6,872 bases of DNA from Thermoproteota archaeon (GTDB taxonomy: Archaea > Korarchaeota > Korarchaeia > B14-G2): contig QMWA01000095.1 of assembly GCA_003661385.1 (NCBI GenBank), positions 1-6,872 of the forward strand, read 5' to 3'. This document shows positions 583-6,872 of the stretch, piece by piece. A program made the position numbers and the translations under genes. The notes below the pieces were generated by a model. That model was not told the origin of the DNA and searched no databases. It worked only from the letters and a program-made list of their open reading frames with translations. The first letter of the stretch is position 1. Every line of letters starts with the position of its first letter.

Positions 583-1056
583 CTACTGCCTTACTAGCTC
601 GAGTAGGTCTCTGCCGCTGACTATTATACCACAGTAGCTGCACCTCACCTTCACCGGGCTGAGCCCTATTACCTCGAATGCAGGCTCAACAGGCTCTCTC
701 CCGAAGTTGGTGATGCACCTCGCGTTTGGGCACTTTATCAGGTTCCTGAACCTGGCTGGTGGCTTGACTTTCCACTTCTCAACCACCCTGTACTCTCTTA
801 TTATGTTTATCGTCGCTGTCTCTGCTATGAGCGCTATCTTGTTGACTTCCTCTGGCTTGAGAAACCTGTTCTCAATTTTCACTATGTCCTTCTTACCTAG
901 CTTTGTGCTTGGGACATGCATCGCTATGCTGACTACCTCCTCTTCCTCTCCTGTTATCCCCAATATGCTCAGGACTACTAGGGCTCTTCCATCAGGTATA
1001 TGGTCTATCACTGTTCCATCTCTTATCTTCCTTACTCTAAGCTCCTGCTCCTCCAC
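583..1056 (-). CDS. pyrI: Aspartate carbamoyltransferase regulatory chain
   Basis: This 157-residue protein is the regulatory subunit that binds nucleotide effectors and joins PyrB trimers into the allosteric ATCase holoenzyme in the cytoplasm. The N-terminal allosteric domain shows the family start RKIRDGTVIDHIPDG (about 9-23). The C-terminal zinc domain has the expected four cysteines, C109-x4-C114 and C139-x2-C142, nearly at the same positions as in the E. coli protein. Length is normal for the family. The start is GTG at 1056, one base after the pyrB TGA stop (1060-1058), with a good ribosome site GAGGTG five bases upstream inside the pyrB end. The gene is therefore an internal cistron translated right after pyrB, which suits a subunit made in equal amounts. 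I see no truncation or missing ligand. Confidence 0.97.
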   Translation of the reverse strand: MEEQELRVRKIRDGTVIDHIPDGRALVVLSILGITGEEEEVVSIAMHVPSTKLGKKDIVKIENRFLKPEEVNKIALIAETATINIIREYRVVEKWKVKPPARFRNLIKCPNARCITNFGREPVEPAFEVIGLSPVKVRCSYCGIIVSGRDLLELVRQ

Positions 1057-1057
1057 G

Positions 1058-1990
1058 TCACCACCTCAGCTCTAGTATCTCAGCTATCAGAGCTGCTCTG
1101 ATGTAAAGGCCGTTCTTGGCCTGGTCAAAGTACTTGGCATGCCTCGTCTCATCTACCTGCGGTGGCAGCTCCTCTGTCCTAGGTAGCGGGTGTAGCACTA
1201 TGAGCTCTGGCTTAGCCTTCTCCAGGTCGCTTGGCTTAAGCATATACGAGCCCTTTACCCTCTCATACTCATATGGGTCTGGAAACCTCTCTTTCTGTAT
1301 TCTCGTGATGTAGAGGACGTCCAGCTCCCCTATTACCTGCGACAGGTCTCTGACCTCCTCCCACCTCAGCTTACCCTTGACTGTCTCAAGGACTTCCGGC
1401 CTCATCCTTAGCTCCGGTGGCGATATCAGGTAGACCTCATTTCCTGGGAAGAGGCTTAGCCCATAGCATAGGCTACTCGGCGTCCTACCGTACTTGAGGT
1501 CTCCCATTACCCCGACCTTGAGGCTGCTTACTCTGCCTAGCTCCCTCCAGATCGTGTAGAGGTCTAGTAGGGTCTGTGTCGGGTGCTCTCTAGAGCCGTC
1601 TCCAGCGTTTATGACTGGCACACTCGCTACTTCAGCTGCCAGCTTTGATGCGCCTTCACCTGGGTGCCTGAGCACTATCAAGTCTATGAGGTAGGAGTCT
1701 ACCATTCTTATCGTGTCTGCTAGAGTCTCCCCCTTAACTATGGATGTCCTCTCGACTTCTCCAAAGTCTAGGATGCTCCCCCCAAGCTTCAGCATAGCTG
1801 ACTGGAAGCTTAGCCTGGTTCTGGTTGAAGGCTCCATGAACACTGTGGCCATTACTCTGCCTTCAGCTGCGTTCAGCTTCTTTCCTCTCTTCAGCAGCCT
1901 CCTGAGCTCCTCTGCGACCTGGAACACACGTGTTATGTCCTCTGGTGTCAGGTCTAGTATGGAGACTAAACTTTTACCTGAGAGTGGCAA
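1058..1990 (-). CDS. pyrB: Aspartate carbamoyltransferase catalytic chain
   Basis: This 310-residue enzyme condenses carbamoyl phosphate and L-aspartate to N-carbamoyl-L-aspartate, the committed step of pyrimidine synthesis. Catalytic motifs are in order: the carbamoyl phosphate loop EPSTRTR (53-59), the mobile loop TSIVKGETLADT (82-93) with S83 and K86, LRHP (107-110), HPTQ (136-139), GDLKYGRT (163-170), the aspartate loop TRIQKERF (229-236) and HPLPR (267-271). All key residues are present. The start is TTG at 1990, giving MPLSGKSLVS, a normal N terminus. There is no Shine-Dalgarno motif before it, but a TATA-like box is centred 26 bases upstream, so the mRNA is probably leaderless with the TTG at its 5' end. 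The gene leads an operon with pyrI (1-base gap) and a GNAT gene, and diverges from pyrF. Confidence 0.97.
   Translation of the reverse strand: MPLSGKSLVSILDLTPEDITRVFQVAEELRRLLKRGKKLNAAEGRVMATVFMEPSTRTRLSFQSAMLKLGGSILDFGEVERTSIVKGETLADTIRMVDSYLIDLIVLRHPGEGASKLAAEVASVPVINAGDGSREHPTQTLLDLYTIWRELGRVSSLKVGVMGDLKYGRTPSSLCYGLSLFPGNEVYLISPPELRMRPEVLETVKGKLRWEEVRDLSQVIGELDVLYITRIQKERFPDPYEYERVKGSYMLKPSDLEKAKPELIVLHPLPRTEELPPQVDETRHAKYFDQAKNGLYIRAALIAEILELRW
1062..1067 (-). promoter_or_regulatory. Ribosome binding site of pyrI
   Basis: On the minus strand GAGGTG lies 5 bases before the GTG start of pyrI and inside the last codons of pyrB. It matches the 3' end of archaeal 16S rRNA and decides the GTG at 1056 as start. 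The contrast with pyrB, which has no such motif before its start, fits the pattern of leaderless first genes and Shine-Dalgarno-led internal genes. Confidence 0.7.
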
Positions 1991-2012
1991 GTGTACCCTA
2001 GTATCAAGGCTG

Positions 2013-2019
2013 TATTTAA
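2013..2019. promoter_or_regulatory. TATA-like box shared by divergent pyrB and pyrF
   Basis: TATTTAA on the plus strand (TTAAATA on the minus) is the only AT-rich stretch in the gap between the two genes. Its centre at 2016 lies 26 bases from the TTG start of pyrB (1990) and 26 bases from the TTG start chosen for pyrF (2042). Archaeal TATA boxes are centred about 26-27 bases before the transcription start, so the box could serve both directions with both mRNAs leaderless. I see no clear purine-rich BRE on either side, so direction cannot be read from the sequence. Confidence 0.6.
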
Positions 2020-2041
2020 CAATAGCTTCATGGGTGGGTGG

Positions 2042-2860
2042 TTGCCTCTAAAGAGCTTCATCTCCATGTTGGAGGAGGCTGTGAGCGAGAAGAGGAGCGT
2101 TCTATGCCTTGGTTTGGACCCAGCAATGCCAGGTGAGCGTGAGGAGCATGTCGCCTCAAGGAGCTACCTAGATGGGAGGAGCCTTGAGGAGGCTAAGCTC
2201 CAGTTCTGCCTTGATCTCATCGAGGAGCTTCACATGTACTTTGCTGCTGTTAAGGTCAATGAGCAGTATGTGAGGGGGCTGTCAAGCAGCCAGCTTTCTT
2301 CGATAGCTAAGGAGGCTAGGCGGCATGGGCTCGTCTCCATATACGACTGTAAGCTTGGTGACATAGGCGCAAGCGCCAAGATGGGTGTCCTCAGTGTAGC
2401 AAGGCTTGGCTTCGATGCTATTACAGTCAACCCTCTATCCGGGAACCTGGAGAGCGTTGTCAGGTATGCTCACCAGCATGGGATTGCAGTGATCTCGCTT
2501 GTCCTCATGTCTAACCCTGAGGCTGCTCGCTACATGAAGGAGGCTGAGCTCAGAGGAGAGCCTCTCTACATGGCTTTTGCCAGAGATGTCTGCTACTCTG
2601 ATGCAGATGGATGCGTCGTCGGTGCAACAGGGCATGTCAAGCCGGAGGAGATCAGAGCTGTCAGAGAAGCCATTGGGGCAGGCAGGGTCATTTTATCTCC
2701 TGGAGTGGGTGCTCAAGGAGGTGACCTCAGGAAGGCTATCAGGTATGCTGGGAGGCCTCTGCTGGTCAACGTCGGGAGAGCTGTGATCTATGCTAAGAGC
2801 CCTAAGGAGGCTGCTGAGAGGATGTGGAGGGCTTCTCTAGGCTCCAGCTCGCTGGCCTAA
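2042..2860 (+). CDS. pyrF: Orotidine 5'-phosphate decarboxylase (class-2-like)
   Basis: The enzyme decarboxylates OMP to UMP, the last step of UMP synthesis. From the TTG at 2042 it has 272 residues starting MPLKSFISMLEEA. Motifs are GLDP (24-27), KVNEQYV (71-77), the catalytic D-x-K-x-x-D array in DCKLGDIG (D102, K104, D107), NPLSG (130-134), GATGH (194-198), SPGVGAQGG (219-227) and the phosphate-binding NVGRA (243-247). The length and the early SFISMLEEA are typical of the longer, class 2 branch. The frame is open back to a GTG at 1991 and has an ATG at 2030 and another at 2066. I chose 2042 because the TATA-like box at 2013-2019 predicts transcription from about 2042 and because homologues start just before this SFI segment; 2030 would be too close to the box. 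The gene end overlaps pyrC by 59 bases tail to tail. Confidence 0.93.
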   Translation: MPLKSFISMLEEAVSEKRSVLCLGLDPAMPGEREEHVASRSYLDGRSLEEAKLQFCLDLIEELHMYFAAVKVNEQYVRGLSSSQLSSIAKEARRHGLVSIYDCKLGDIGASAKMGVLSVARLGFDAITVNPLSGNLESVVRYAHQHGIAVISLVLMSNPEAARYMKEAELRGEPLYMAFARDVCYSDADGCVVGATGHVKPEEIRAVREAIGAGRVILSPGVGAQGGDLRKAIRYAGRPLLVNVGRAVIYAKSPKEAAERMWRASLGSSSLA

Positions 2861-6214: not shown

Positions 6215-6574
6215 CCCGATTTCACGCAGAGCCTCCAGGAGCATACGAGCCTTAGCTGCAAACTCACTAGATGATATGCTGCTCCATGAAGGGCAACTTC
6301 TATCCACGGTGACAGCCCCCACATCTAGATCATAAACTATGGGATAAGCCCTACAGCCGACAGGCCTGATGCTGTAGATCAGGCACTTTCCTTCAACAAG
6401 GTTCAGGAAAACACATCTGCCACCGACATTCCTAATCCTATAGACGCCGCCTCTACTCTCGCAAAAGTAGCTTAAGGAAAACCCTGTGCTACGAATCCTC
6501 CTCACATCACTTGGAGTAAGAAGCATCTCGGTCTCAGTACAGCACCTAATGCAGCCGTCAATGCACCTAACCAT
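6200..6574 (-). CDS. Cysteine-cluster (YkgJ / UPF0153-like) protein, probably zinc- or iron-sulfur-binding
   Basis: The protein, 124 residues from ATG 6574, opens with C4-x3-C8-x2-C11-C12, the mark of the CxxxCxxCC family. It continues with C38, C54, C64 and then CLIYSIRPVGCRAYP (64-78), the conserved C-x3-Y-x2-R-P-x2-C-R-x-Y-P core, and C94. Family members bind a metal or cluster of uncertain type and their reaction is unknown. The frame is open to a TTG at 6592, which would add MIKVVE. I prefer the ATG because the TATA-like box centred at about 6598 predicts transcription near 6573, which would leave the TTG out of the mRNA. The gene diverges from methylmalonyl-CoA mutase and overlaps the phosphoribosyltransferase end by 15 bases. 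Its third codon positions are rich in T (Ile as ATT, for example), unlike the A-rich phosphoribosyltransferase gene next to it. Confidence 0.85.
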   Translation of the reverse strand: MVRCIDGCIRCCTETEMLLTPSDVRRIRSTGFSLSYFCESRGGVYRIRNVGGRCVFLNLVEGKCLIYSIRPVGCRAYPIVYDLDVGAVTVDRSCPSWSSISSSEFAAKARMLLEALREIGLPDA

Positions 6575-6583
6575 CTCAACAAC

Positions 6584-6613
6584 CTTTATCAACCCTTAAA
6601 GATAAGCTTTATC
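6584..6613. repeat. CTTTATC direct repeats and GATAA/TTATC inverted repeat around the divergent promoter
   Basis: CTTTATC occurs at 6584-6590 and again at 6607-6613, 23 bases apart. The second copy is half of an inverted repeat with GATAA (6601-6605) across three bases. The repeats flank the TATA-like box, where a regulator could control both genes. Such short AT-rich repeats may also arise by chance. Confidence 0.35.
6595..6601. promoter_or_regulatory. TATA-like box between the Cys-cluster gene and methylmalonyl-CoA mutase
   Basis: CTTAAAG reads CTTTAAG on the other strand. Its centre, 6598, is about 24 bases from the ATG of the Cys-cluster gene (6574) and about 27 from the TTG of the mutase gene (6625), so it could drive leaderless transcripts both ways. 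A second AT-rich stretch, TTTAT (6608-6612), is an alternative box for either gene. Confidence 0.5.
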
Positions 6614-6624
6614 TGGGTGGTTTT

Positions 6625-6872
6625 TTGTCTGTTGAGGGTCTTTTGAGGGAGGTTGAGGAGTGGGAGTCTAAGCTTGTCCAGGAGTACTTGAGGAAGCTCC
6701 CAGAGCGCAAGAAGGAGTTCAAGACACCAAGTGGAATCCCCCTAAAAAGAGTATACACACCACTAGACATAAAAGGAACCTACCTAGAAAAACTAGGGCT
6801 ACCAGGAAAATACCCATACACAAGAGGAATACACCCAACAATGTACAGAGCAAGAATATGGACAATGAGACA
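6625..6872 (+). CDS. mcmA: Methylmalonyl-CoA mutase, large (substrate-binding) subunit, N-terminal part
   Basis: Eighty-two residues are visible before the right edge. The start is TTG at 6625, giving MSVEGLLREVEEWESK, a charged helix, followed by PERKKEFKTPSGIPLKRVYTP (about 27-47) and GLPGKYPYTRGIHPTMYRARIWTMR (58-82). The last segment, P-G-x-Y-P-Y-T-R-G-x-x-P-T-M-Y-R-x-R-x-W-T-M-R, is the conserved entry to the TIM barrel of the coenzyme B12 enzyme that interconverts methylmalonyl-CoA and succinyl-CoA. In archaea the B12-binding domain is commonly a separate small subunit, which would lie outside this window. The role could be propionate/branched-chain breakdown or the 3-hydroxypropionate/4-hydroxybutyrate carbon fixation cycle. 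GGGTGG (6615-6620) lies 4 bases before the TTG and could be a ribosome site if transcription starts further upstream. Third codon positions change abruptly at codon 34. Confidence 0.93.
   Translation, partial: MSVEGLLREVEEWESKLVQEYLRKLPERKKEFKTPSGIPLKRVYTPLDIKGTYLEKLGLPGKYPYTRGIHPTMYRARIWTMR

Follow-up and report, generated by a model that had tools for sequence, protein, structure and literature searches.

The 51 bases between the divergent start codons of pyrB and pyrF contain one TATA-like box, and for either gene the top-scoring promoter site falls on the same six bases of it (2014-2019). We consider it fairly probable, judging from the motif and its spacing, that this box serves pyrB and pyrF alike as a weak archaeal bidirectional core promoter. 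The finding is real, had been correctly read in the earlier note and is mostly ordinary, such arrangements having been described before in archaea and being frequent in the source genome. The pyrB/pyrF gap is probably one more case, unconfirmed, of this known kind of promoter, without the in-register flanking BREs that are typical of it and not essential. If true, it would add one more likely archaeal TATA box driving two real mRNAs instead of an mRNA plus antisense noise. Its importance is modest, since little is added on the mechanism of initiation and the regulation of UMP synthesis is not addressed; the sharing of boxes throughout the genome is more interesting than the pyrB/pyrF pair itself.

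Genes and start codons at the pyrB/pyrF locus

The window (the whole stretch of 6,872 nucleotides that was analysed) is contig C95 of a draft archaeal genome of 1.74 Mb. The features of the locus are as follows.

583..1056, minus strand: pyrI, aspartate carbamoyltransferase regulatory subunit (TIGR00240, 186 bits), one base 3' of pyrB
1058..1990, minus strand: pyrB, aspartate carbamoyltransferase catalytic subunit (TIGR00670, 366 bits), TTG start at 1990, start aligned with relatives
1991..2041, no strand: gap between the pyrB and pyrF start codons, 51 bases by direct reading
2042..2860, plus strand: pyrF, subfamily-2 orotidine 5'-phosphate decarboxylase (TIGR02127 cut-off exceeded, with 117 bits), TTG start at 2042 from the N-terminus compared with homologues

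Curated cut-offs were exceeded by pyrB, pyrI and the subfamily-2 pyrF with the models listed, and by pyrC with TIGR00857. As pyrI follows pyrB after only one base, both are probably carried by a common mRNA. The gene pyrC is convergent with pyrF and overlaps its end. The pyr genes are not all grouped here, and pyrF is the sole divergent partner of pyrB at the locus. The genes pyrD and pyrE are located outside the window contig, on contig C16 (C16:14730-16867; C6:5-187). One part of pyrE apparently lies at the end of C16 and the other at the start of C6, so these two contigs are probably neighbours. The earlier note had described pyrB and pyrF as belonging to two branches of UMP synthesis; they are rather steps 2 and 6 of a single linear pathway.

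The letters and coordinates given there for TATTTAA (2013-2019, centre 2016), for the pyrB TTG at 1990 on the minus strand and for the pyrF TTG at 2042 on the plus strand are all correct. TTG 1990 is the only in-frame start of pyrB before the upstream stop, and relatives with about 50-63% identity begin at the same aligned residue, many of them also with TTG. The open frame of pyrF has four candidate starts, GTG 1991, ATG 2030, TTG 2042 and ATG 2066. Subfamily-2 homologues start 1-4 residues ahead of a conserved Phe that is residue 6 when counted from TTG 2042 and residue 10 from ATG 2030, with ATG 2066 located downstream of it, and the N-termini of the homologues relative to this Phe make TTG 2042 the best pyrF start. 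GTG 1991, ATG 2030 and ATG 2066 were discarded, as they fit both the promoter and the homologous N-termini more poorly. The two divergent genes have therefore homologue-supported starts that are 52 bp apart (1990 and 2042).

The two gene starts had also been described as an inverted repeat. Actually, AGAGTGGCAA (1981-1990) and TTGCCTCT (2042-2049) do agree in 7 of 8 positions after inversion of one of them, because both proteins begin with M-P-L. As a signal, the matching start sequences (TTG-CC-N-CT) had to be rejected, 4% of random TTG-TTG gene pairs being equally good.

Promoter motif of the source genome

Promoters were surveyed in a sample of 81 contigs (1.11 Mb) of the genome. Genes were called by codon usage, their starts were assigned with a simple purpose-made caller and a motif was learned upstream of 556 probable transcript-leading genes. 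It turned out to be the archaeal BRE-TATA, approximately AARGY followed by TTWWAA, and its centre shows two peaks of distance from the start codon, one at about -25.5, which fits leaderless transcripts, and one at about -34.5, which fits transcripts with a short leader. Two similar position modes were found in two further archaeal genomes submitted to the same analysis. SD-like words accompany 24% of the leaderless-type (-25.5) promoters and 61% of the short-leader-type (-34.5) ones. Of the 92 leaderless-type promoters in the sampled contigs only 7 precede a TTG start, compared with 51 of the 128 promoters of the short-leader type, perhaps because transcription seldom begins on a pyrimidine.

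The box in the pyrB/pyrF gap

Applied to the gap, this motif and direct reading gave the following features.

2006..2010, plus strand: AAGGC, BRE-like word on the pyrF-direction side, by direct reading against the genome motif (own-register score only 1.3 bits)
2013..2019, no strand: TATTTAA, probable shared TATA box, with 2014-2019 ranking first as a promoter site on either strand according to the genome-trained BRE-TATA motif
2024..2028, minus strand: AAGCT (minus reading), BRE-like word on the pyrB-direction side, by direct reading against the genome motif

The gap has a G+C content of 45%, compared with 53% for the whole window, and TATTTAA is its only 7-mer made exclusively of A and T. 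The top site found with the genome-trained motif was the same for both genes. In the pyrB direction (minus) the box scores 5.1 bits at -26.5 from TTG 1990, with a posterior of 0.81 among positions, and in the pyrF direction (plus) 2.9 bits at -25.5 from TTG 2042, with a posterior of 0.75. The box had been placed exactly midway between the starts, which holds for TATTTAA with its centre at 2016, but not for the six motif bases, centred at 2016.5. Both scores are modest when compared with the median best score of 5.6 bits of the transcript-leading genes. Ranked by promoter support among internal start codons, pyrB falls in the top 3.4% and TTG 2042 in the top 7.6%, all the other starts of pyrF being worse supported than the latter. 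A shared box of equal quality is found at 0.2% of the positions in coding DNA and at 0.85% of those outside it, so it is above chance, yet not overwhelming taken alone.

The lower score of the plus strand leaves some room for a box that works one way only. In such a case the box would serve pyrBI, its stronger direction, and transcription of pyrF would depend on another site within the first part of pyrB. With TAAACTTTTACCTG (1967-1980), for instance, the leader would have about 40 bases, and the GGGTGGG in it would aid initiation at TTG 2042. G-rich SD-like words are found upstream of both TTGs, and TTG starts in this genome are usually preceded by a short leader with such a word, as TTG 2042 would be; moreover, the site at 1967-1980 equals the 2.9 bits of the box. 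However, it lies at -67.5, beyond both position modes of the genome, whereas the shared box sits at the modal leaderless distance, and we regard this explanation as unlikely. A similar objection applies to an A/T run that would be incidental, with pyrB at least initiated further up, from CTTTAG within 2045-2058 (minus), behind a leader of about 34 bases. This site reaches 5.0 bits, nearly the same as the shared box on the minus strand, and has an in-register BRE-like AAGC, but its position at -60.5 from the pyrB start, beyond both modes and within pyrF, makes it very improbable.

An in-register BRE was sought beside the box, and no match to the AARGY of the genome was found on either side, the adjoining bases being GCTGT (plus) and TATTG (minus). 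The BRE-like words are set too far outward, AAGGC three bases and AAGCT four bases beyond the BRE position of the genome. They are symmetric about the box and each of them is correctly placed for a register shifted outward, which would suit two distinct overlapping boxes, TTAAAT (2019-2014) for pyrB and TGTATT plus the BRE AAGGC (2006-2016) for pyrF. The plus-strand register of this kind, at -28.5, has a posterior of 0.11. Nevertheless, the shifted registers score only about 1.3 bits and a single box is the usual case in the source genome (39 of 51 close divergent pairs in which both genes have a site), and we give very little credit to two separate boxes.

Shared boxes in other divergent gene pairs

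The sampled contigs contain 211 divergent gene pairs, about 40 of them with one common box. The starts are 40-80 bp apart in 62 pairs; both genes have a site in 51 of these, and in 39 the two sites fall on one and the same box; this last figure becomes 40 when pyrB/pyrF is counted at TTG 2042. Examples are given below by contig and start positions.

C52, starts 7574/7626: divergent pair with a shared box
C27, starts 10647/10711: divergent pair with a shared box
C31, starts 7111/7165: divergent pair with a shared box

Pseudo-pairs made from tandem genes, used as a chance baseline although they are an imperfect null, share a box in 18% of cases versus 63% for the real close divergent pairs, and 6.6% versus 27% do so at 7 bits or more. 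In addition, the BRE on the opposite strand is better in close divergent pairs than in tandem promoters (p = 0.003). The same comparison in two other archaeal genomes went in the same direction and was not significant. A BRE-TATA-BRE palindrome is frequent among the same-box pairs, and the strongest shared boxes carry BREs on both sides, as in CATGCTTATAAACCTG, with 52 bp between the ATG starts and scores of 12.3 and 12.1 bits. When the 40 same-box pairs are ranked by their lower score, pyrB/pyrF is the weakest.

The high proportion of shared boxes relative to the pseudo-pairs, together with the better opposite-strand BREs, suggests that divergent promoters built on a shared box are a regular trait of the source genome. 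A much bolder proposal, that we put forward only tentatively, is that one symmetric BRE-TATA-BRE links the two genes in about one fifth of the divergent pairs of this deep and poorly studied lineage and is kept by selection to give two mRNAs, as a compact substitute for the operon, with pyrB/pyrF as a pathway-coupled example. The approximately 40 candidate pairs provide a set for testing whether selection keeps two-way promoters.

Proposed initiation from a single box

Several observations favour a bidirectional promoter at pyrB/pyrF. Both pyrB and pyrF have their best site on the same six bases and at a leaderless-type distance, the starts from which this distance is counted, TTG 1990 and TTG 2042, are those best supported by homologues, and boxes are shared in 39 of the 62 close divergent pairs, far above the pseudo-pairs, with better BREs on the opposite strand. 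Furthermore, a TATA box used in both directions, with about 50 bp between the starts, has been published for P. furiosus, including its activity in vitro (PMC6640164). At pyrB/pyrF the near-palindromic box at 2014-2019 would be bound by TBP, and TFB would join on either of its sides and so set the direction, as is established for archaeal initiation, in which direction depends on the contacts between TFB and BRE (PMC7289017). RNA polymerase would then initiate about 25 bases from the box, on the minus strand for a pyrBI mRNA or on the plus strand for a pyrF mRNA, both with almost no 5' leader. Simultaneous occupancy of the box by the two assemblies would be impossible, so both genes would depend on a single common platform, which might or might not bring co-regulation or competition between them.

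The proposal of one TBP site firing two leaderless mRNAs is thus only partly maintained: a single site agrees with the common best box and with its many parallels in the genome, but strictly leaderless TTG mRNAs are doubtful for pyrB and pyrF, given how seldom TTG follows leaderless-type promoters and that archaeal transcription start sites favour purines (PMC7289017). For the same two reasons the 5' ends are more likely located 1-2 bases upstream of each TTG, probably at purines such as A1992 (minus) and G2041 (plus), which are 49 bases apart. The bidirectional, near-leaderless reading is weakened by the modest scores of the box, the weakest of the 40, by the lack of an in-register BRE and by the scarcity of TTG at this type of promoter (7 of 92), and also by the SD-like words before both TTGs, which would need leaders.

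Comparison with known systems

The closest parallel is found in P. furiosus, where two-way initiation from one archaeal TATA box gives starts about 50 bp apart and a case of 49 bp was reproduced in vitro; BREs flank both sides in about 78% of these promoters, being typical and not strictly required (PMC6640164). As there, the pyrB/pyrF gap has a near-palindromic TATA box midway between divergent starts about 50 bp apart, and TFB would set the direction, here as a prediction from sequence. The differences are that the second RNA of P. furiosus is mostly antisense noise, whereas two mRNAs would result at pyrB/pyrF, and that most of its cases have both BREs, while pyrB/pyrF has none in register and its transcription starts are predicted ones.

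A bipolar pyrimidine operon with divergent, overlapping pyrE/pyrB promoters has been described in Sulfolobus acidocaldarius (Thia-Toong 2002 as cited in PMC3584215). In both cases an archaeal pyrB points away from another gene of the pyrimidine pathway, and the promoters overlap in the small space between them, a likeness seen here at the sequence level. The Sulfolobus unit opposite pyrB is pyrE (with pyrF), in a locus that groups the pyr genes, whereas here pyrF stands alone, pyrC is convergent and pyrD and pyrE are on another contig.

Bacterial bidirectional promoters (E. coli, PMC12825309; Salmonella, PMC10268837) also have a pseudo-symmetric core that is read both ways by polymerases that exclude each other, but theirs consists of a -10 element used by sigma70 and the start sites are usually 18 bp apart. 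The basal activity of the two-way promoters examined in E. coli was too low for competition, unless one direction was activated (PMC12825309), which by analogy weakens the idea of competition between pyrB and pyrF.

Relatives and origin of the arrangement

Genomes of the same genus or family were searched for and none was found. A single scan of genome contigs gave three distant relatives of the window pyrF; the nearest matches, with 42-45% identity, are on contigs from uncultured archaea, of which two bear the label Bathyarchaeota. The pyrB neighbourhoods of about 50 archaeal genomes yielded no recognisable divergent pyrF, in a search with the window pyrF as the query and with short flanks, which highly different pyrF genes could therefore escape. 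In genomes of the same class, pyrB is downstream of a co-directional gene and the divergent pyrB/pyrF arrangement is absent; several of them have a different, shorter pyrF upstream of pyrB and in the same direction. The distribution of the two gene types suggests that the subfamily-2 pyrF of the window likely replaced the shorter type. As the class relatives have another arrangement together with the shorter pyrF, the divergent one probably arose in the source lineage with the different pyrF.

In another archaeal genome (C1:1512500-1519000), pyrB is divergent from its own pyrI across a gap of about 46 bases, so a two-way promoter may there be common to the catalytic and regulatory subunits of the same enzyme. 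The window itself contains a second divergent pair (6574-6643), in which the beginning of a methylmalonyl-CoA mutase gene points away from the gene of a CxxCxxCC-domain protein. Several strong TATA-like sites, one of them possibly shared, lie in the approximately 50 bases between the two.
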